From: Pelagibacterales bacterium SAG-MED47 | GTDB lineage: Bacteria; Pseudomonadota; Alphaproteobacteria; Pelagibacterales; Pelagibacteraceae | Length of the DNA stretch: 64,000 nucleotides | Assembly: GCA_014653355.1 (NCBI GenBank) | Contig: JACWEO010000002.1 | Location: forward strand, 62,001 to 126,000 | Direction of reading: 5' to 3' | Shown here: in pieces, positions 11,395 to 22,650 of the stretch | Position numbering within the stretch: position 1 is the stretch's first letter | Layout: each line of letters starts with the position of its first letter | The notes under the pieces: generated by a model | Database searches by the model: none | Told to the model about the DNA's origin: nothing | What the model saw: the letters and a program-made list of their open reading frames with translations, nothing else | Made by a program: the position numbers and the translations under genes

Positions 11395-12366
11395 ATGAAA
11401 TTCATAAAATACTTAATAACTGTTTTAGTTTCATTAATTTTGTCAATCAATCTTGCGATTGCAGAGAAATGGGACATGGCTCTTGCTTATGGAGCGGGAA
11501 ATTTTCATTCTGCAAACGCAACTGAATTTGCAAAAAATGTAACTGAAAAAAGTGGTGGTAAACTAACAATCGTTACTCATCCAGGTGGATCACTATTTAA
11601 AGGTGGAGAAATTTTTAGAGCAGTGAGAACTGGACAAGCACAAATCGGTGAAAGATTTATGTCTGCTTTAGGAAAAGAAGATCCATTATTGGAAATAGAC
11701 TCGCAACCATTCCTGGCATCATCTTACTCAGATGCTATGAAATTATATAAAGCATCAAAAGATGAAATTATAAAAGGTTTGGATGCTAAAGGGCTTGTTT
11801 TCCTATATGCTGTACCGTGGCCAGCACAAGGCTTGTATAGTAAGAAAGAAATTAATTCAGTTAATGATTTGAAAGGCTTAAAATTTAGAGCATACAATTC
11901 TGCTACAATAAGAATTGCTGAATTAACTGGAATGGCTCCTACCAAAATAGAAGCAGCAGAAATAAGTCAAGCATTTTCAACAGGTGCTGTTGAAAGTATG
12001 ATTACATCTCCAACGACTGGAAAAAATTCTAAGATATGGGAGAATGGTGTGAAATATTTTTATGACATTGCAGCTTGGTTTCCAAAAAATATGGTGATCG
12101 TGAATAAAGAGTCTTGGAATAAATTGGATAAAGCAACTAAGGATTTAGTAATGAAGCAAGCAGCCTTAGCAGAAAGAAAAGGTTGGCAATTATCAAAACA
12201 AGGAAATGTTGGAGATAAAAAAGCTCTAGCAGATGCTGGTATGGTAGTTGGAAAAGTTAATGCATCTTTACAATCTCATTTTGAAAAAGTTGGAGAGACA
12301 ATGGCTAAAGAATGGTCTCAAAAAGCTGGATCAAGAGGAGCGTCTGTTTTATCAGCTTATAAATAA
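11395..12366 (+). CDS. TRAP transporter substrate-binding protein, DctP family
   Basis: Periplasmic solute receptor of a TRAP transporter. A clear signal peptide (KFIKYLITVLVSLILSINLAIA, cleavage before EKWDMAL) precedes the DctP fold: AKNVTEKSGGKLTIVTHPGGSLFKG, VRTGQAQIGE, and the ligand-Arg region LKGLKFRAYN with the usual TGMAPTKIEAAEISQAFSTGAVES. The 323-residue length is typical. It is followed by a hairpin and then the small and large membrane subunits. Substrate is unknown; the close 5-oxoprolinase genes hint at a carboxylate such as 5-oxoproline, but that is inference. Confidence 0.94.
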   Translation: MKFIKYLITVLVSLILSINLAIAEKWDMALAYGAGNFHSANATEFAKNVTEKSGGKLTIVTHPGGSLFKGGEIFRAVRTGQAQIGERFMSALGKEDPLLEIDSQPFLASSYSDAMKLYKASKDEIIKGLDAKGLVFLYAVPWPAQGLYSKKEINSVNDLKGLKFRAYNSATIRIAELTGMAPTKIEAAEISQAFSTGAVESMITSPTTGKNSKIWENGVKYFYDIAAWFPKNMVIVNKESWNKLDKATKDLVMKQAALAERKGWQLSKQGNVGDKKALADAGMVVGKVNASLQSHFEKVGETMAKEWSQKAGSRGASVLSAYK

Positions 12367-12382
12367 TTAAATTAAATATATC

Positions 12383-12415
12383 TTAAGGCCACTTAAAAAT
12401 TTTAAGTGGCCTTAA
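12383..12415 (+). other. Intra-operon hairpin between dctP and dctQ
   Basis: TTAAGGCCACTT (12383-12394) pairs perfectly with AAGTGGCCTTAA (12404-12415), and the loop bases AAAAATTTT can extend the stem. It begins 16 bp after the dctP stop and ends 6 bp before the dctQ ATG. No T-run follows on the plus strand, so it is more likely an mRNA-stabilising or processing structure, or a leaky terminator, that raises binding-protein dose over permease. It also covers the place where the dctQ ribosome binding site should be. Confidence 0.75.
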
Positions 12416-12421
12416 ATTATT

Positions 12422-12904
12422 ATGTTAAGTACTATCAATAAAAATCTAAATAAACTTTATAAATTTTCTGGCTATATTGCTGCAATTTTTTTAATATTAG
12501 TTGCAGTTTTTATTCTTATAGGTATTTCGTCAAGAATATTTGGTTTTTATATAAGAGGTTTAGCAGAATATTCTGGTTATTGTATGGCTTCAGCATCTTT
12601 CTTTGCACTAGCTTATACTTTTGTAGAGGGTGGACATATACGAATTACTCTTTTTTTAGAAAAACTTTCAGGTAGGAAAAGATGGTTGATTGAAATTTGG
12701 TGTTTGAGTTTGGCCAGTTTTTTTTCAGGATATTTAGCATTCTATTTTGTTAAAATGTTAATAATATCTTACAAATTTCAGGAAAGAAGTGAGGGTGCGG
12801 ATGAAATATTAATATGGATACCTCAAACAAGTATAGCAATAGGTTCAACAATATTTTTTATATGTGTTTTTCATCAATTTATCCTAAATATAAAAAAAAG
12901 ATAA
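12422..12904 (+). CDS. TRAP transporter small permease subunit, DctQ family
   Basis: A 160-residue protein with four predicted membrane helices, the DctQ layout: FSGYIAAIFLILVAVFILIGISSRI, the second helix with AEYSGYCMASASFFALAYTF, the conserved GGHIRITLFLE loop, and two further helices. It bridges DctP-loaded substrate to the large DctM channel at the inner membrane. It sits between the hairpin and dctM, with dctM starting on the base after its stop. Confidence 0.92.
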   Translation: MLSTINKNLNKLYKFSGYIAAIFLILVAVFILIGISSRIFGFYIRGLAEYSGYCMASASFFALAYTFVEGGHIRITLFLEKLSGRKRWLIEIWCLSLASFFSGYLAFYFVKMLIISYKFQERSEGADEILIWIPQTSIAIGSTIFFICVFHQFILNIKKR

Positions 12905-14215
12905 ATGGCTGAGATATTTTTAACAATTTTTTTTATTAGTGTTTTATTGTTTTTTTTAGGTTCTGGTATCTGGGTTGCATTAAGCATGATAGGGGTATCA
13001 GCAATTGGCATGATGTTATTTACTTCTAGACCAGTAGGTGATGCAATGGCTACTACAATATGGGGAACTGCATCCTCATGGACTTTGACCGCATTGCCCT
13101 TATTTGTTTGGATGGGTGAAATTCTTTTTAGAACTAAGCTCTCAGAAAATTTATTTAAAGGCCTATCTCCTTGGATGCAAAAGCTTCCAGGAGGCTTAAT
13201 TCATGTAAATGTTGTTGGATGCGCTCTATTTGCTGCAATATCAGGATCATCAGCGGCAACTGTAGCTACAGTTGGAAAGATGTCTATCCCTGAGTTAAGA
13301 AAAAGAAATTACCCAGAAAAAATTTTAATAGGTAGCTTAGCTGGCTCAGGTACTTTGGGACTATTAATACCTCCATCAATTATTTTAATTATTTATGGTG
13401 TAGCTGTTCAAGAATCCATAGCAAAATTATTTATAGCAGGAATCATTCCAGGGATAATGATTGCACTAATATTTATGTCATATGTTATTATATGGTCTTT
13501 AATTAATAAGGAAGAAATGCCAAAAATTCTTGAGGAATATTCTTTTTTAGAAAAAATCAAGAGATCAAAACAACTTTTACCAGTAATATTACTTATCTCT
13601 GCAGTTATAGGGTCTATATATACTGGAATAGCAACTGCAACTGAGGCAGCTTCACTTGGTGTTGTTGGGTCTTTGATTTTATCATATTTTCAAAAAAGTT
13701 TAAATTTAGAAACATTCAGATCTTCTTTGTTAGGTGCAACAAAAACTTCTTGTATGATCGCTTTTATCTTAGCTGGATCAACTTTTTTATCTTTAGCTAT
13801 GGGTTTTACAGGATTACCAAGAAATTTAGCAATATGGATACAAGGCATGGAACTTTCTCCATATGTTTTAATTTTAGTTTTAATGATTTTTTATATTATT
13901 TTAGGAATGTTTCTTGATGGTATATCTGCCGTCGTGCTAACAATGGCAATAATAGAGCCAATGATAAGACAGGCTGGTTTTGATATGATTTGGTTTGGTA
14001 TTTTTTTGGTTATTGTAGTTGAGATGGCGCAGATAACACCTCCTGTTGGATTTAATTTATTTGTTCTTCAAGGCATGGCAAATAAAGATATGGGATATAT
14101 TGCAAGAAGTGCCTTTCCATTATTCTTATTAATGGTATTTGCAGTAATACTAGTGGTGTTATTTCCGGAGATTGCTTTATGGATGCCTGAGAAAATGGTG
14201 CAAAATTTAAATTAG
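12905..14215 (+). CDS. TRAP transporter large permease subunit, DctM family
   Basis: The Na+-coupled transport channel of the TRAP system. A 436-residue protein with about 12 hydrophobic segments and DctM landmarks: GSGIWVALSMIGV, ALPLFVWMGEIL, NVVGCALFAAISGSSAATVATVG, GSLAGSGTLGLLIPPSI, ATATEAASLGVVG, GMFLDGISAVVLTMAI and the C-terminal EMAQITPPVGFNLFV motif. Its end overlaps the convergent Gly-rich TPR gene by 4 bp (shared TTAG). Confidence 0.95.
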   Translation: MAEIFLTIFFISVLLFFLGSGIWVALSMIGVSAIGMMLFTSRPVGDAMATTIWGTASSWTLTALPLFVWMGEILFRTKLSENLFKGLSPWMQKLPGGLIHVNVVGCALFAAISGSSAATVATVGKMSIPELRKRNYPEKILIGSLAGSGTLGLLIPPSIILIIYGVAVQESIAKLFIAGIIPGIMIALIFMSYVIIWSLINKEEMPKILEEYSFLEKIKRSKQLLPVILLISAVIGSIYTGIATATEAASLGVVGSLILSYFQKSLNLETFRSSLLGATKTSCMIAFILAGSTFLSLAMGFTGLPRNLAIWIQGMELSPYVLILVLMIFYIILGMFLDGISAVVLTMAIIEPMIRQAGFDMIWFGIFLVIVVEMAQITPPVGFNLFVLQGMANKDMGYIARSAFPLFLLMVFAVILVVLFPEIALWMPEKMVQNLN

Positions 14216-14817
14216 TATTTTGAAACTTCTTCTCCTGCAATTATTTTTTCAAGTTGTTCATATTCTTCACAATTACAACCTTTTAAGACTTGTAATCTTT
14301 CTACTGCAAGGTTGTGTCGACCAGTTGCAACATAAAGCTCTCCAAGATATTCGTTAATACCTATATGATCTGGATCTATAGTCAGTCCTAACAAATAATA
14401 TTTCTCTCCTTGCTCGAAATCACCTAATTTTCTGGTAGTAAATCCCAAATAGTTTAATGTATTAGGGTTATTTGGATTCTTTATATTTGATTTAATTAAA
14501 AGTTTCTGAGCCTTTGCAAATCTTTTTTTTGCTTTATCTAATTTTCCTTTAGTTTCAAATTTTTTTGCTCTTTTTATATGATAGACTGCTTTATCATAAT
14601 TTGTTTTAACTTTAGTCGAGTTACCTTCACCTCCTCCAGAGCCACTGTCACCTCCGCTACCGCCGCCGCTGCCACCGCCGCCGCTTTCGCCGCCGCCGCC
14701 GCCGCCTTCGCCGCCACCGCCGCCTTCGCCGCCACCGCCTTCGCCACCACCAGCAGCAAAAACATTAGCAGTTAAAAAAAAGCAGGTAATAATTAAAATA
14801 ATAAACTTTTTAAACAT
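14212..14817 (-). CDS. Exported Gly/Glu-rich TPR protein
   Basis: About 201 residues with three parts: a Sec signal peptide (MFKKFIILIITCFFLTANVFA), a run of about 45 residues that is almost all Gly with interspersed Glu and Ser (AGGGEGGGGEGG... to GGGEGN), and a C-terminal TPR region (YHIKRAKKFETKGKLDKAKKRFAKAQ, then NTLNYLGFTTRKLGDFEQGEKYYLLGLTIDPDH). The Gly region is encoded by a GC-rich codon repeat quite unlike the rest of the window. ATG at 14817 gives a proper signal peptide; a TTG two codons upstream is possible. The 5' end overlaps pxpA stop by 8 bp, so it may be co-transcribed with pxpA. Probably periplasmic or surface-exposed; function unknown. Confidence 0.8.
   Translation of the reverse strand: MFKKFIILIITCFFLTANVFAAGGGEGGGGEGGGGGEGGGGGGESGGGGSGGGSGGDSGSGGGEGNSTKVKTNYDKAVYHIKRAKKFETKGKLDKAKKRFAKAQKLLIKSNIKNPNNPNTLNYLGFTTRKLGDFEQGEKYYLLGLTIDPDHIGINEYLGELYVATGRHNLAVERLQVLKGCNCEEYEQLEKIIAGEEVSKY
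14651..14752 (-). repeat. GC-rich degenerate GGC/GGT/GAA codon repeat
   Basis: On the coding strand the tract consists of Gly codons, largely GGC, broken by GAA and AGC at irregular 3-6 codon intervals, with near-copies of GGCGAAGGCGGTGGC. Base composition switches abruptly from very AT-rich to mostly G and C and back within about 100 bases. The pattern suggests growth by replication slippage within the Gly-rich gene. Confidence 0.8.
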
Positions 14818-15595
14818 TAACAAATTTTTTCATTTTATTTAATGGAACTAAATTATATCCATTATTTTGTAAGTTTTCTCTTATAGATTTTGCAGTTTCC
14901 AGAGAACTCATATTATCCCCATGTATACAAACTGAGTCTATTTCACAAGGTATCAACTTTCCACTGTGACAATTAAGAGCCTGATTTTTGACCATACTAA
15001 GTACATGCTTTTTTGCTATTTCAGGGTCAGTTATCAACGCATTTGGTTTCTTTCTAGAAACTAGATTACCATCATCTTCATAGTTTCGGTCTGCAAAAAT
15101 TTCACAAGCTATTTTCATATTAAGTTTCTTTGCAGCCTCTTCCATTTTAGAACCTGTGGGTACTAAATAAATTAGATCTTTATTGATTTCTTTAACCGTT
15201 TTTGCCAAAGTTCTAGATAATTCAATATCCTCGCAAGCCATATTATTTAGTGCTCCATGTGGTTTTATATGGCTTACCTCCTCATTATATTTTAGAGCTA
15301 TAGTCTGTAAGATTTCAAATTGATCAATTATTAATTTTCTAATTTCATTTGATGATAAATTCATTCTACTTCTTCCAAAATTTTCTGGGTCATTGAAAGA
15401 AGGATGGGCTCCTACACTTACACTATTTTCTTTTGATATAGCAATTACTTGATTCATTGTTTCCTCATCACCAGCATGATAACCGCAAGCTATATTTGCT
15501 GAATTAACAATTTTTAACAATTCTGGATCATGTTTGTTGGAATGATGTTTAGATTTTTCACCCAAATCACAATTTATATTAATTTCCATACTCAT
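14810..15595 (-). CDS. pxpA: 5-oxoprolinase subunit A (LamB/YcsF family)
   Basis: Subunit of the ATP-dependent 5-oxoprolinase PxpABC, which opens 5-oxoproline (pyroglutamate) to glutamate. Family motifs: INCDLGEKSKHH at the N-terminus, NIACGYHAGDEETM, VGAHPSFNDPENFGR, SHIKPHGALNNMAC, IFADRNYEDDGNLVSRK and DSVCIHGDNMSS. The 261-residue length is normal. Unlike the usual operon, it is divergent from pxpB and pxpC, with only 21 bp between start codons, so both promoters must lie within or overlap the coding regions. Confidence 0.94.
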   Translation of the reverse strand: MSMEININCDLGEKSKHHSNKHDPELLKIVNSANIACGYHAGDEETMNQVIAISKENSVSVGAHPSFNDPENFGRSRMNLSSNEIRKLIIDQFEILQTIALKYNEEVSHIKPHGALNNMACEDIELSRTLAKTVKEINKDLIYLVPTGSKMEEAAKKLNMKIACEIFADRNYEDDGNLVSRKKPNALITDPEIAKKHVLSMVKNQALNCHSGKLIPCEIDSVCIHGDNMSSLETAKSIRENLQNNGYNLVPLNKMKKFVNV

Positions 15596-15616: not shown

Positions 15617-16291
15617 ATGATAAAAAATATATCAAATCTTGGTGACGCAGCTTTATATTGTGATTTTGGAACTGAGGTAAACAAAGAGGTAAATAATAAA
15701 GTAATACGTTATTTTAAAAGTATTCAAAAAGAAAATATTGATGGTATTAATAACCTAACTCCATCTTATAATAAATTAATAATTTCATTTGATATACGTA
15801 AAAAAAATTTTCAAACTATTAAAAAATTAATAGAAAATTTAGATGTTATCAATGATGATATATTAGAAAGTAAAAAAATTAAGATACCAGTTTGTTGTGA
15901 TGAAAAATTTTCACTTGATATAATAAGATTAGAGAAAAAGTTAAAGATAAATCGAGATAAGATTTATGAAAAATTTTTTGGTAAAGAATTGTTTTGTTAT
16001 ATGACTGGTTTTATAGCAGGGATGCCTTTTTTGGGTGACCTAGAAAATGAACTACGAGCAAACCGTTTAGAAACACCTAGAGTAAAAGTGCCGAAAGGTT
16101 CAGTTGGACTTACAGAACAATTCGCAAATGTTTATTCTTTTGAAAGTCCTGGTGGATGGAATATTATCGGGAACACACCAAGTGTTATTTTTAATAGCTC
16201 TAAGGAGAATAATCCAAATTTAATCAACCCAGGTGATGCAGTCACCTTTGAGCAAATTACAAAAGACCAATACAACAATTACAATGAATAA
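15617..16291 (+). CDS. pxpB: 5-oxoprolinase subunit B (KipI/AHS1 family)
   Basis: The AHS1-domain subunit of PxpABC. Motifs include NLGDAALYCDFG at the N-terminus, the PVCCDEKFSLDI segment (matching the family's I-P-V-x-Y), YMTGFIAGMPFLGDL, PRVKVPKGSVGL and SPGGWNIIGNTPS near the C-terminus. At 224 residues it is typical. It overlaps pxpC by 8 bp (ATGAATAA), indicating coupled translation. Some relatives (KipI) inhibit a sporulation kinase in Bacillus, but the neighbourhood with pxpA and pxpC points to oxoprolinase. Confidence 0.93.
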   Translation: MIKNISNLGDAALYCDFGTEVNKEVNNKVIRYFKSIQKENIDGINNLTPSYNKLIISFDIRKKNFQTIKKLIENLDVINDDILESKKIKIPVCCDEKFSLDIIRLEKKLKINRDKIYEKFFGKELFCYMTGFIAGMPFLGDLENELRANRLETPRVKVPKGSVGLTEQFANVYSFESPGGWNIIGNTPSVIFNSSKENNPNLINPGDAVTFEQITKDQYNNYNE

Positions 16292-17228
16292 AAATTATTT
16301 TGAGATTAAAAGAGCTGGAATAAACACAACATTTCAAGATCAAGGTAGAAGCAACCTTTATCATATTGGCATTCCATTTAGTGGGGCAATGGATAATAGA
16401 AATTTCCAAATTTCTAATAAGCTTGTTGGGAACGAAACAAATTCACCAGTAATTGAATTTGCTTATCAAGGTCCATTGTTGAAGTATTTTGGTGACAAAA
16501 TTAAATGTGCAATTGCAGGGGATGTAAAATTTATAATTAAAAAAAATGATAATGATATCGAGGGAGACTGTTATAAATCTTTCACATTAGAAAATGGGGA
16601 TGAAATAGATATTATGACAACTAACAAATCTGTTTATGGATATCTAGCAATTAGTGGTGAATTTAATTTAGAATATCAATGGTCTAGTTGCTCTATTAAT
16701 ACAAAAGCAAATATAGGATCGAATAATGGAAAAAGACTAGAGGATGCACAAAAAATATATATTTCTAAAATTAATAAAAACTTAAATGATAAAAAGCTAA
16801 ATTACATAAATACAAAAATAGAAAAAATTAGAGTTATTAAAGGAACAAATTTTAATTATTTTTCTGATGAGGGAAAAAATTTTTTTTTTGATAAGGAATT
16901 TATTGTATCGAAATTATCAGATCGTATGGGTATGAGATTAAATGGACCACAAATTGAAAATATTGTTGATACCAACATAAAATCCGAAGGTTTAATAAAA
17001 GGAGTAATTCAGGTACCTGCAGATGGAAATCCAATTATTATGCTTTCTGATCATGGGACTATTGGAGGTTATCCCAAAATAGGAGTTGTTATCAGTGCTG
17101 ATTATGACAAATTAGTCCAACTTGCGCCTGGTTCAAAAATTAAATTTCAAGAAGTCGAATTATCTAGCGCAGAAACTTTATTTAAACTATATGACTTAGA
17201 GACTCAAAAACTAATTTCACAAATATAA
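16284..17228 (+). CDS. pxpC: 5-oxoprolinase subunit C (KipA/AHS2 family)
   Basis: The AHS2-domain (urea-amidolyase-related) subunit of PxpABC. Motifs: IKRAGINTTFQDQGRSNLYHIGIPFSG shows the family's typical start, then AMDNRNFQISNKLVGN, IEFAYQGP, SDRMGMRLNGP, IQVPADGNPIIMLSDHGTIGGYPKIG. ATG at 16284 is chosen because the family begins about there; a start at 16233 would add 17 non-conserved residues inside pxpB. The stop shares TAATG with the next transporter gene. Confidence 0.93.
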   Translation: MNKNYFEIKRAGINTTFQDQGRSNLYHIGIPFSGAMDNRNFQISNKLVGNETNSPVIEFAYQGPLLKYFGDKIKCAIAGDVKFIIKKNDNDIEGDCYKSFTLENGDEIDIMTTNKSVYGYLAISGEFNLEYQWSSCSINTKANIGSNNGKRLEDAQKIYISKINKNLNDKKLNYINTKIEKIRVIKGTNFNYFSDEGKNFFFDKEFIVSKLSDRMGMRLNGPQIENIVDTNIKSEGLIKGVIQVPADGNPIIMLSDHGTIGGYPKIGVVISADYDKLVQLAPGSKIKFQEVELSSAETLFKLYDLETQKLISQI

Positions 17229-18106: not shown

Positions 18107-18131
18107 CTTTTTCACATACATGTAAGATTAT
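18103..18131 (+). promoter_or_regulatory. Sigma70-like promoter of the gcv operon
   Basis: TTGACT (18103-18108) and GATTAT (18126-18131) are separated by 17 bases and precede the riboswitch by 6 bases, placing a start site at about 18138, at the 5' strand of the first aptamer. The -35 box overlaps the TGA stop of the upstream transporter. Confidence 0.6.
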
Positions 18132-18137
18132 TCTTTC

Positions 18138-18298
18138 ACGGGAGAGACTACAAAATATCGTAGCGCCGAAGGAGCAACCACCCAGGAATCTCTCAGGTAA
18201 AAAGGACCGTAAAATATTAACTCTGGAAAGAGATTTAATTCTCGCCGAAGGAGCAAAACTCTCAGGCAAATATACAGATGGGTATAAAGAGTTAATAT
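18138..18298 (+). promoter_or_regulatory. Tandem glycine riboswitch controlling gcvT
   Basis: Two consecutive glycine aptamers are visible. Aptamer 1 (about 18138-18210) has GGGAGAG, GCGCCGAAGGAGCAA, TCTCTCAGGTAAAAAGGAC and closing stem ACGG/CCGT. Aptamer 2 (about 18221-18280) has CTCTGGAAAGAG, TCGCCGAAGGAGCAA, ACTCTCAGGCAAA and a short closing stem TCTG/CAGA. The linker ATATTAACTCT (18214-18224) is exactly complementary to AGAGTTAATAT (18288-18298), which includes the translation start region and the first two bases of the gcvT ATG, so control is probably at translation initiation. No intrinsic terminator is seen. Confidence 0.93.
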
Positions 18299-19400
18299 GG
18301 AAATTAAAAAAACTTCGCTGCATCAATTACATCAAGATAATAAAGCAAAATTTGTAGAATTTGCAGGTTATCAAATGCCAATACAATATTCTGAAGGTAT
18401 AGTAGAAGAGCATAAATACACAAGAAATCACTCAGGGATTTTTGATGTTTCACATATGGGCCAATTATTTATTTATGGTGGTGAAGATTTAATGAAAGAT
18501 TTAGAAAAAATCTTTCCTTTAGATTTAAAAAATTTAAAACTAAATCGTTCAAAATATAGTTTCTTAATGGATAAAGATGCTGGGATTTACGATGATCTGA
18601 TTATCACAAAAATTAATGAAGGTTTTTTAATAATTCTTAATGCGGCATGCAAAGACAACGACTTTAAAATGTTAAAGGAATTATTAAAGAACAAGTACAA
18701 AATGGTTTTGGATCATAATAGATCATTAATTGCAATTCAGGGCCCTAAATCATCACAAATTCTAAATGATGTTGTTAATGGAGTAAAAGATTTAAACTTT
18801 ATGTTAGGAAATTGGTTTTCATTTGAAAATCAGAAAGTCTACATTACACGGTCTGGGTATACGGGTGAAGATGGGTTTGAAATATCAATCCCAAATGATC
18901 TTGCAGATAAATTTACTAGAGAATTAATTAATAAAGGTTCTAAGTTAATAGGCTTAGGAGCAAGAGATACTTTAAGATTAGAAGCTGGTTTATGTTTATA
19001 TGGTCATGATCTTGATAAAGATAAAACTCCAGTGGAAGCAAATTTAAAATGGGCGATCTCAAAAGAAAGAATATCTCAAGGAGATTTTATAGGTTCCGAT
19101 ATAATCATAGAACAATTAAATAATGGTGTCAGTAAAATTAGAGTTGGGATTAAACCTGAGGGAAGAATAATTGCTCGGGAAAAAACAAAAATATTTAATC
19201 AATTAGATGTGCATATTGGAGAGATTACTAGTGGTACTTTTGGACCAAGTGTAAATGGGCCTGTAGCAATGGGATATGTAGAAAATGAATTTTCAAAAAA
19301 AAATACTAAAGTATTATTGGAGGTAAGAGGAAAAAAGCATCCAGCAAGTGTTTGTAGTTTACCATTTTATAAAAAAAGTTATGTCAAAGGAGTAAATTAG
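18297..19400 (+). CDS. gcvT: Glycine cleavage system T protein (aminomethyltransferase)
   Basis: Transfers the aminomethyl group from lipoyl-GcvH to tetrahydrofolate, giving 5,10-methylene-THF and ammonia. Sequence landmarks: [34 protein letters not shown]-like ([14 protein letters not shown]), [38 protein letters not shown] and [17 protein letters not shown]. The 367-residue length is normal. It lies just behind the glycine riboswitch, is first of gcvT-gcvH-gcvP, and its stop overlaps the gcvH start by one base. Confidence 0.97.
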
Positions 19401-19780
19401 TGAGTGAGGTAAAATATTCAAAAGAACACGAGTGGATTAAGTTAGATGGAGATGTAGCAACGATTGGTATTACGAAACATGCAACTGAAATGTTAGGTGA
19501 TATAGTTTTTGCAGAACTTCCAGAAAAAGGTTCAAATGTTGAAAAAGATGGAACAGCTGGTGTAGTTGAGTCGACAAAAGCAGCAAGTGATGTGTATACC
19601 CCTGTTAGTGGTGAAGTGGTTGATACTAATCAAGCTATAGTAGATGATCCATCAAAAATTAATGAAGATCCAGAAAATACAGCATGGTTTTTTAAACTCA
19701 AAATAAAAGATTTATCAGAAATGGATACTTTAATGAACAAAGATGATTATGATAAATTTGCAAAGGAGACATCGGCATAA
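19400..19780 (+). CDS. gcvH: Glycine cleavage system H protein
   Basis: The lipoyl carrier of the glycine cleavage complex. The lipoylation site is the Lys in [14 protein letters not shown], within the standard 126-residue fold that starts [20 protein letters not shown]. Start is GTG at 19400, overlapping the gcvT stop. Its own TAA stop overlaps the gcvP ATG. The L protein (lipoamide dehydrogenase) is not in the window and is normally encoded elsewhere. Confidence 0.97.
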
Positions 19781-22650
19781 TGTTACCAAATTCAGAGAAA
19801 GATTTTTTAAAAAGACACATTGGACCTTCTAAAGAAGATCAATCAAAAATGTTAAAAGAATTAAATTATAAATCACTAGATGATTTAATTGACAACACTG
19901 TTCCAGAAAAAATAAAGTTTAAAGGTGAATTAAATATTGGTGAGTCGAATTCAGAATATGAAGCTTTAAGAAAATTAAGAGTAATTTCAAAAAAAAATCA
20001 GGTTTACTCAAATTTTATTGGAATGGGTTATTATGGAACATATACACCATATGTAATTTTAAGAAATATATTAGAAAATCCAGGTTGGTATACTTCCTAT
20101 ACGCCTTATCAACCAGAGGTAGCACAAGGAAGATTGGAAATGCTATTAAATTTTCAACAAATGATTGTTGATTTTACAGGAATGGATATTGCAAATGCAT
20201 CTTTACTAGATGAAGGCACAGCAGCAGCAGAAGCTATGGGTCTTAGTCACAGATTAAATAAGAAAGATGGTAATTTAGTCTTTGTATCTGAGGATTGTCA
20301 TCCTCAAACTATTAATGTAATTCAAACAAGAGCTGAACCAATGGGTTTAAAAGTTTTAGTTGGTAATGAAGACGAGGTATTAGTTCAATTAAAAGAGGAC
20401 TTAGTTTGTGGAATTTTACAATATCCAGGAACTTTAGGAAATATTAAAGACCCAAGTGAAGCAATTAGCAAAATTCATAAAAAGAATGGAAAGGCTATAT
20501 TAGCTTGTGATCTATTAGCATTAGCAAAATTAAAAACACCTAGGGAACTTGGTGCTGATATAGCAGTTGGAAGCTCTCAACGATTTGGTATTCCAATGGG
20601 ATATGGAGGTCCACACGCAGCCTTTTTTGCAACGAAAGATGAATATAAAAGATCTATGCCAGGTAGAATTGTTGGAGTGTCAGTTGATAGACATGGCAAT
20701 AAGGCATATAGATTATCACTACAAACTAGAGAGCAGCACATCAGAAGAGATAAGGCAACTAGTAATATTTGTACTGCCCAAGCTCTATTAGCAATTGTGT
20801 CAGCAGCATATGCTATTTATCATGGTCCAGCAGGAATCAAAAATATTTCTGAACGAGTATCCCAATTAGCAAAAAGCTTTGCTGATAAAATTAAACAGTC
20901 TGGATATGAACTATACTCTAATTATTTTTTTGATACTGTAACAATTGTTACTAAAGAAAAAACTGATCAAATTTATAATAATGCTTTAGATCAAAAAGTT
21001 AATATACGAAAAGTGAATTCTGAAATGCTTGCAGTTTCATTTGATGAAAGAAAAAATGTTTATAGAGTAAATCAACTATTAAAAATTTTTAATTCAGCAG
21101 AATCAATCAAAAAAGAGGATCCTTCAGTAAGTTTACCAAATCTACCAAAAAACTTATTAAGAATTTCAAAATATTTAGAACACCCAGTTTTTAACTCTTA
21201 TCATTCAGAAACTGAGATGCTTAGATATCTTAAAAGGTTAGAGGATAAAGATATAGCATTGAATAGAACGATGATAGCACTTGGCTCATGTACAATGAAG
21301 TTAAATGCTGCTGCTGAAATGATCCCAATTTCTTGGAAAGAATTTGCAGAGCCTCATCCATTTGTTCCAATCGAACAAATGGAAGGGTTTAGAGATTTAT
21401 TTACTGATCTAAAAAATTGGTTGAGATCAATAACTGGTTTTTCAGGTGTATCTCTACAGCCTAATGCAGGTGCTCAGGGTGAATATGCTGGTTTAATGGT
21501 TATCCGTAAGTATCACTTAGATAGAGATGAGGCTAATCGTAATATATGTTTAATTCCAAGTTCAGCTCATGGTACTAATCCGGCAAGCGCACAGATGGTT
21601 GGAATGAAAGTGGTTGTTGTTAATTGTGATAAAGATGGAAATGTTGATTTTGATGATTTAAAGAAAAAAGCTGAACAACATTCTGGAAACCTTGGTGCAT
21701 TAATGGTGACTTACCCATCTACCCATGGAGTATTTGAGGAAAAAATAATCGATATTTGTGAATTAGTCCATAAACATGGTGGTCAAGTTTACATGGATGG
21801 GGCAAATTTAAATGCCCTAGTTGGAGTTGCAAAACCAGGAAATTTTGGTCCAGATGTTTGTCATATTAACTTACATAAAACTTTTTGTATTCCTCATGGT
21901 GGAGGAGGACCTGGTATGGGGCCTATTGCCTGTAAAAGACATTTACAAGCTTATCTTCCTAATCATCCAGTAATAAAAGATTGTGGACCAACAACTGGAA
22001 TTGGAGCAGTATCAGCAGCTCCTTGGGGTAGTTCAAGTATTCTTTCAATTTCTTGGATGTACATTAAAATGATGGGGTCAGAGGGATTAAAGCTTGCTTC
22101 TCAAGTTGCAATATTAAATGCGAATTATATTGCTCATAGGCTTAAAGATCACTTTCCGATTTTGTATAAAGGGTCAAATGGTAACGTTGCACATGAATGT
22201 ATTATTGATATCAGAAATATAAAGTCAGAGACAGGGGTAACAGAAGAAGATATCGCAAAAAGGTTAATAGATTTTGGATTTCATGCTCCAACAATGTCGT
22301 GGCCTGTAGCTGGTACTATGATGATAGAACCAACTGAAAGTGAAGGTTTATCAGAACTTGATAGATTTTGTGACACTTTAATTATGATTAAAAAAGAAAT
22401 AGAAAAAATTAAGTCAGGTAAATTTGACAAGATAGATAATCCAATTAAAAACGCACCACACACAGATAGTGAACTAGCTTCTGACAATTGGAAACATAAA
22501 TATTCAAGAGCAGAAGCGGCTTATCCAGCAAAATTCTTACGAACTAGTAAATTCTGGCCTCCAGTTGCAAGAGTAGATAATGTTTATGGCGACAAGAATA
22601 TATTCTGTACTTGCCCAAGCATAGATGAATTTAAAGAAGATGCAGCTTAA
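19780..22650 (+). CDS. gcvP: Glycine dehydrogenase (decarboxylating), P protein, single-chain
   Basis: PLP enzyme that decarboxylates glycine and loads the aminomethyl group onto GcvH. The 956 residues contain both halves that are separate genes in many bacteria: N-terminal half with RHIGPSKEDQSKML, GMGYYGTYTPYVILRN, LDEGTAAAEAMG and C-terminal half with LGSCTMKLNAA, SSAHGTNPASAQM and the PLP-lysine region HINLHKTFCIPHGGGGPGMGP. The next gene starts 6 bp after its stop with no terminator, so transcription likely continues. Confidence 0.97.
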   Translation: MLPNSEKDFLKRHIGPSKEDQSKMLKELNYKSLDDLIDNTVPEKIKFKGELNIGESNSEYEALRKLRVISKKNQVYSNFIGMGYYGTYTPYVILRNILENPGWYTSYTPYQPEVAQGRLEMLLNFQQMIVDFTGMDIANASLLDEGTAAAEAMGLSHRLNKKDGNLVFVSEDCHPQTINVIQTRAEPMGLKVLVGNEDEVLVQLKEDLVCGILQYPGTLGNIKDPSEAISKIHKKNGKAILACDLLALAKLKTPRELGADIAVGSSQRFGIPMGYGGPHAAFFATKDEYKRSMPGRIVGVSVDRHGNKAYRLSLQTREQHIRRDKATSNICTAQALLAIVSAAYAIYHGPAGIKNISERVSQLAKSFADKIKQSGYELYSNYFFDTVTIVTKEKTDQIYNNALDQKVNIRKVNSEMLAVSFDERKNVYRVNQLLKIFNSAESIKKEDPSVSLPNLPKNLLRISKYLEHPVFNSYHSETEMLRYLKRLEDKDIALNRTMIALGSCTMKLNAAAEMIPISWKEFAEPHPFVPIEQMEGFRDLFTDLKNWLRSITGFSGVSLQPNAGAQGEYAGLMVIRKYHLDRDEANRNICLIPSSAHGTNPASAQMVGMKVVVVNCDKDGNVDFDDLKKKAEQHSGNLGALMVTYPSTHGVFEEKIIDICELVHKHGGQVYMDGANLNALVGVAKPGNFGPDVCHINLHKTFCIPHGGGGPGMGPIACKRHLQAYLPNHPVIKDCGPTTGIGAVSAAPWGSSSILSISWMYIKMMGSEGLKLASQVAILNANYIAHRLKDHFPILYKGSNGNVAHECIIDIRNIKSETGVTEEDIAKRLIDFGFHAPTMSWPVAGTMMIEPTESEGLSELDRFCDTLIMIKKEIEKIKSGKFDKIDNPIKNAPHTDSELASDNWKHKYSRAEAAYPAKFLRTSKFWPPVARVDNVYGDKNIFCTCPSIDEFKEDAA

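Follow-up and report, generated by a model that had tools for sequence, protein, structure and literature searches.

The window, the whole 64,000-nucleotide stretch of DNA that was analysed, carries a gene for an exported TPR protein in which a polyglycine tract directly follows the signal peptide. The gene, its parts and its neighbours are as follows.

11395–14215 (+): TRAP transporter genes, DctP, DctQ and DctM (Pfam)
14212–14817 (−): TPR protein gene, 201 aa; ATG at 14817, stop at 14212–14214
14236–14601 (−): TPR-type helical domain, residues 73–194, seven predicted helices (Pfam, AlphaFold2)
14623–14751 (−): Gly/Glu/Ser tract, codons 23–65
14752–14817 (−): Sec-type signal peptide MFKKFIILIITCFFLTANVFAA, codons 1–22, read from the sequence
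14810–15595 (−): pxpA (LamB/YcsF family, 5-oxoprolinase subunit A; Pfam PF03746, E 1.4e-86)
15617–16291 (+): pxpB, carboxyltransferase-domain subunit of 5-oxoprolinase (Pfam CT_C_D and CT_A_B for the pxpB/pxpC pair)
about 16287–17228 (+): pxpC, carboxyltransferase-domain subunit of 5-oxoprolinase (same Pfam pair)

The TPR gene, whose translation could alternatively begin at a TTG (14823), lies downstream of pxpA on the same strand with an overlap of 8 bases, and pxpB and pxpC are divergent from pxpA. At its stop, the TPR gene overlaps the convergent TRAP transporter genes by 4 bases. It adjoins pxpA, with the order unchanged, in 40 of the 41 loci with a usable flank; the 41st ends at a contig edge. 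Judging by gene neighbourhood only, the TPR protein may be tied to 5-oxoproline use. The relatives that bear the gene are Pelagibacteraceae (SAR11). Within the genus, 294 of 399 genomes have it; across the family it is present in 113 of the 147 genomes sampled, spread over 13 of 14 genera. As 56 of the 57 high-quality genomes of the genus encode it, the protein belongs to the core set, and what is new is the tract. Further along the window lies a glycine riboswitch aptamer (18129–18219, plus strand; Rfam RF00504, 64.9 bits), followed downstream by glycine-cleavage ORFs, gcvT-, gcvH- and gcvP-like (18297–22650), named from sequence.

The original prediction of an exported TPR protein agrees with the sequence. 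A putative Sec signal peptide can be read from it, with MFKKF, a hydrophobic run and then VFA-A as judged by eye, and TPR motifs score above the Pfam gathering thresholds (TPR_17, 29.6 bits against 24.4; TPR_2, 27.2 against 27; TPR_8, 26.9 against 25.7). The signal peptide is likely cut after VFA (A21) or after A22; A22 and G23 are almost invariant across 68 homologues. The signal peptide ends without a valid lipobox ([LVI][ASTVI][GAS]C), and a lipoprotein tether was rejected on that ground; an IITC at residues 9–12 lies inside the hydrophobic stretch, and its Cys is not conserved among the homologues. If the signal is indeed cut after VFA, as the small-residue rule applied by eye suggests, the tract would be the free N-terminus of the mature protein. 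The tract is predicted to be a flexible tail; the flexible linker proposed at the outset, if it were to join two domains, does not fit the likely cleavage site.

AlphaFold2 modelling with the 68 homologues left residues 33–64 disordered (tract pLDDT mostly below 50) and gave seven confident helices from residue 73 to about 193 (pLDDT about 97). The best PDB matches of the predicted fold are TPR domains. The protein shares the tetratricopeptide helical-hairpin fold with solved structures such as designed CTPR and MamA, but the likeness is generic, with no close functional match. A MamA identity was rejected (NCBIfam NF040959, 28.1 bits against a cut-off of 200), and so was identity with PilW or a type III chaperone, for which scores are far under the curated cut-offs. 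Near the C-terminus, a CxC motif (C181 and C183; site entered as 14184–14189) is invariant in the 68 homologues and suggests a disulphide or metal site.

Composition and repeat structure of the tract

The tract comprises 129 bases encoding 43 residues (32 Gly, 5 Glu, 5 Ser and 1 Asp). It had initially been placed at 14629–14757, six bases off at both ends, but the tract itself is real, and so is its description as a GC-rich polyglycine repeat in AT-rich DNA: its GC content is about 76%, compared with 28.0% for the window. The richest 129-base segment, at the tract, reaches 77.5% GC, and among segments that do not overlap it the window has none above 47.3%. Glycine is encoded in the tract by GGC 20 times, GGT nine times and GGA three times, whereas the other Gly codons in the 60 window ORFs that served as reference are GGT (44%), GGA (40%), GGC (8%) and GGG (8%). 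The excess of GGC (20 of 32 against 8% elsewhere) is highly significant (binomial p = 1.5e-14). Codon choice is not strictly opposite to that of the window, as had been claimed, since GGT is used freely; the enrichment of GGC is the part that stands.

The tract is built of imperfect units, GGC GGY GGC GGC GAA, of 15–21 nt, with Glu spaced regularly every 4–7 residues. Tandem Repeats Finder (TRF) detected arrays with periods of 6–21, and the longest exact internal repeat spans 23 nt, its copies being offset by 18 nt. The tract thus has the look of a simple repeat that has expanded, in keeping with the original prediction of an expanding one. The units differ synonymously, so the tract is not freshly duplicated, and they consist of whole codons, so that slippage by units would preserve the frame. 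Across the 1.13 Mb assembly, a 17-base pattern for six Gly codons has a single occurrence, at the tract.

Tail length among relatives

We measured tail length from the signal-end Ala to the first aromatic residue in 128 distinct homologues, each species being represented by a single genome. Homologues with the same TPR domain and no Gly tract, which the original prediction had proposed to look for, were found, and tail length differs greatly between species: it spans 10 to 51 residues, the protein of the window having 51 against a median of 13, typically AGSSDSGSSKTKTQ. Repeat length and codon use are not fixed in all relatives. The short Gly/Ser/Asp tails of the Pelagibacteraceae proteins (e.g. 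AGSSDSGSSKTKTQY) share with the tract the gene, the site, the neighbours and the small flexible residues, but they have about 13 residues, about 40% GC and no GGC runs.

The second-longest tail, of 34 residues, belongs to L077 (RIS_SAG_17) and is built of a repeated 18-base unit, GGA GGT AGC GGT GGA TCT. Another expanded tail, that of L102 (genome G292), consists of five or six GGS units; it was measured as 22 residues, being cut at a Phe, and has about 29 up to Tyr. The rule also mis-measures two other rows (L152 as 4 and L144 as 10), which, as with L102, leaves the conclusion unaffected. Both L077 and L102 are built on GGA and GGT, and GGC is thus not required for expansion. In a tree of the TPR domain, the window protein and L077 are apart, with two changes in all bootstrap trees, which indicates separate expansion events. 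In the sampled clade nearest to the window protein, a placement with weak support (95/22), tails are 15 residues long. No intermediate tail lengths were seen among the sampled close relatives of this species, and the steps of the expansion are accordingly unseen.

Outside the family, mature homologues in other families of the class likewise begin Gly/Ser-rich. One of them, the alphaproteobacterial TPR protein L185, has AGGSGGGGGGGGGAEGGGGK at the tract site. It belongs to the same protein family and, like the window tract, combines poly-Gly with Glu and is GGC-rich, but its tract is shorter and lies in a genome segment of 68% GC, where GGC codons are unremarkable. Low-complexity tracts have thus grown several times at this site, which marks it as permissive. 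As tails across the class are always Gly/Ser-rich at their start, flexibility is likely to be under some selection, and drift alone is not demonstrated.

Origin and role of the tail

We consider it probable that the tract is a length-tolerant, disordered N-terminal tail that grew longer in this lineage through slippage or unequal exchange, with the conserved work being done by the TPR domain. The protein, a conserved TPR protein of alphaproteobacteria, would begin with this tail once mature in the periplasm. Between signal peptide and first helix, any short flexible Gly/Ser/Asp sequence appears to be accepted, so that length would drift. A Gly-rich seed may then have grown to 43 residues through replication slippage or unequal exchange of units containing GGC and GAA. 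GC richness and GGC codons would be by-products, namely copies of a GGC-rich unit not yet worn down by AT-directed mutation. If the tail acts at all, it may do so as an entropic spacer that holds the TPR domain off the translocon or membrane, and conserved function would be carried by the TPR domain with its invariant CxC.

Published surveys are consistent with such an origin. In the low-complexity regions of bacteria, GGC is significantly prevalent as the codon for Gly, which has been related to slippage bias (PMC6821194), and in fungi homopeptides lean towards GC richness even where the genome is AT-rich, which has been attributed to slippage of CGG/GCC-type repeats (PMC8113271). Given this prevalence and the slippage-prone nature of CGG/GCC-type repeats, the codon bias of the tract needs no codon selection. 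The tract resembles the prokaryotic low-complexity regions described in PMC6821194 in being Gly-rich and GGC-dominated, in its length-tolerant position and in its slippage-prone units; it differs from them in standing alone of its kind in a 28% GC SAR11-like genome, at the start of an exported mature protein. Very unlikely, in our judgement, is a GGC tract kept on purpose, whose length would vary between cells of the species and thereby tune how a conserved periplasmic TPR protein, tied to 5-oxoproline use, is exported or how far it reaches. If true, such a cell-variable tract would be one of few such coding repeats in a streamlined SAR11 genome.

Folding of the nucleic acid bears on whether GGC could be kept for an effect at the RNA level, with a CGG-type hairpin or a two-layer G-quadruplex slowing the ribosome and aiding Sec targeting. 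The tract had been described as pairing poorly with itself. This holds for the C-rich DNA strand (−4.4 kcal/mol) and is wrong for the mRNA strand, for which the predicted fold is −51.3 kcal/mol; when the same peptide is recoded with the codon usage of the window, the mean is −12.0 (SD 4.3, lowest −27). Moreover, the tract contains 23 overlapping two-G-run quadruplex motifs. However, the fold is not clearly better than those of dinucleotide shuffles (z −1.5), and the structure thus follows from GGC content. Per base, the other expansions at the site reach only −0.18 to −0.22 kcal/mol, compared with −0.40 for this tract; such weaker folding speaks against an RNA function common to them all, and most relatives lack the tract. 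We therefore regard an RNA effect as improbable. An adaptive role for the long tail in this species, as an acidic Gly tether through the periplasm or outer membrane or as a binder of metal or peptidoglycan, seems to us unlikely as well. The regular spacing of Glu and the similar Gly-plus-Glu tract of L185 speak for it, but neither length nor composition of the tail is conserved, the acidic residues vary between expansions (Glu, Asp or only Ser), and the protein has neither a lipobox nor a known binding motif.

That the tract is an assembly artefact or foreign DNA in a metagenome-derived assembly is, in our view, very unlikely. It is true that its GC content is extreme, that the genome is a draft of 43 contigs in which repeats are prone to collapse or mis-extension, and that a related contig, G003:C21, stops exactly at the tract site. 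Yet the reading frame runs unbroken from the signal peptide into the TPR domain, the flanks are conserved and gene order agrees with that of relatives. In addition, a longest internal repeat of 23 nt is short for an assembler, the pattern of six Gly codons has no second source in the assembly, and similar tracts occupy the same site in other genomes. The contig in question (5518 bp; L016, L101) ends two bases past the first codon matched beyond the tract site, and genome G003 yielded no pxpA. The contig end may reflect a GC-rich tract that went unassembled, a single case that proves nothing. A mobile or phage origin was also rejected: the TPR protein has no match in phage records, and the one other place with the DNA pattern for Gly-Gly-Gly-Glu is a MORN-type protein of genome G055, which is unrelated.

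Expansion of a length-tolerant tail thus remains our preferred reading. The tract is most likely a striking but ordinary change, a low-complexity tail expanded at a tolerant site and no new system; as a low-complexity expansion, it is a further case of a kind already known. A streamlined, 28% GC SAR11-like genome can nonetheless harbour a 76% GC coding repeat, and the codon bias of such tracts would mirror repeat growth, not genome-wide preference. With one core gene, one site and several separate expansions, the locus offers a comparative series for bacterial repeat growth, and the tract marks a site that short-read assemblies may miss.

Other polyglycine proteins in SAR11

None of the papers searched joins Pelagibacter with polyglycine. 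Seven large exported SAR11 proteins, subtilase- or Calx-beta-like (L032, L034, L035, L038, L040, L041 and L046), have one or two poly-Gly runs, each of 8–9 residues; one lies close to the N-terminal hydrophobic segment, the other past the protease-like part. Exported SAR11 proteins such as L033 (LSACGGGGGGGGGG) and L040, with poly-Gly after a lipobox or a transmembrane segment, place a poly-Gly spacer beside a membrane-proximal segment, as the TPR protein does, but are unrelated to it, being lipoproteins or large proteases that use mixtures of GGA, GGT and GGC. In two SAR11 proteins, L033 and L037 (around position 1500), a lipobox is followed immediately by 9–10 Gly, which is possibly the spacer of a lipoprotein anchor.
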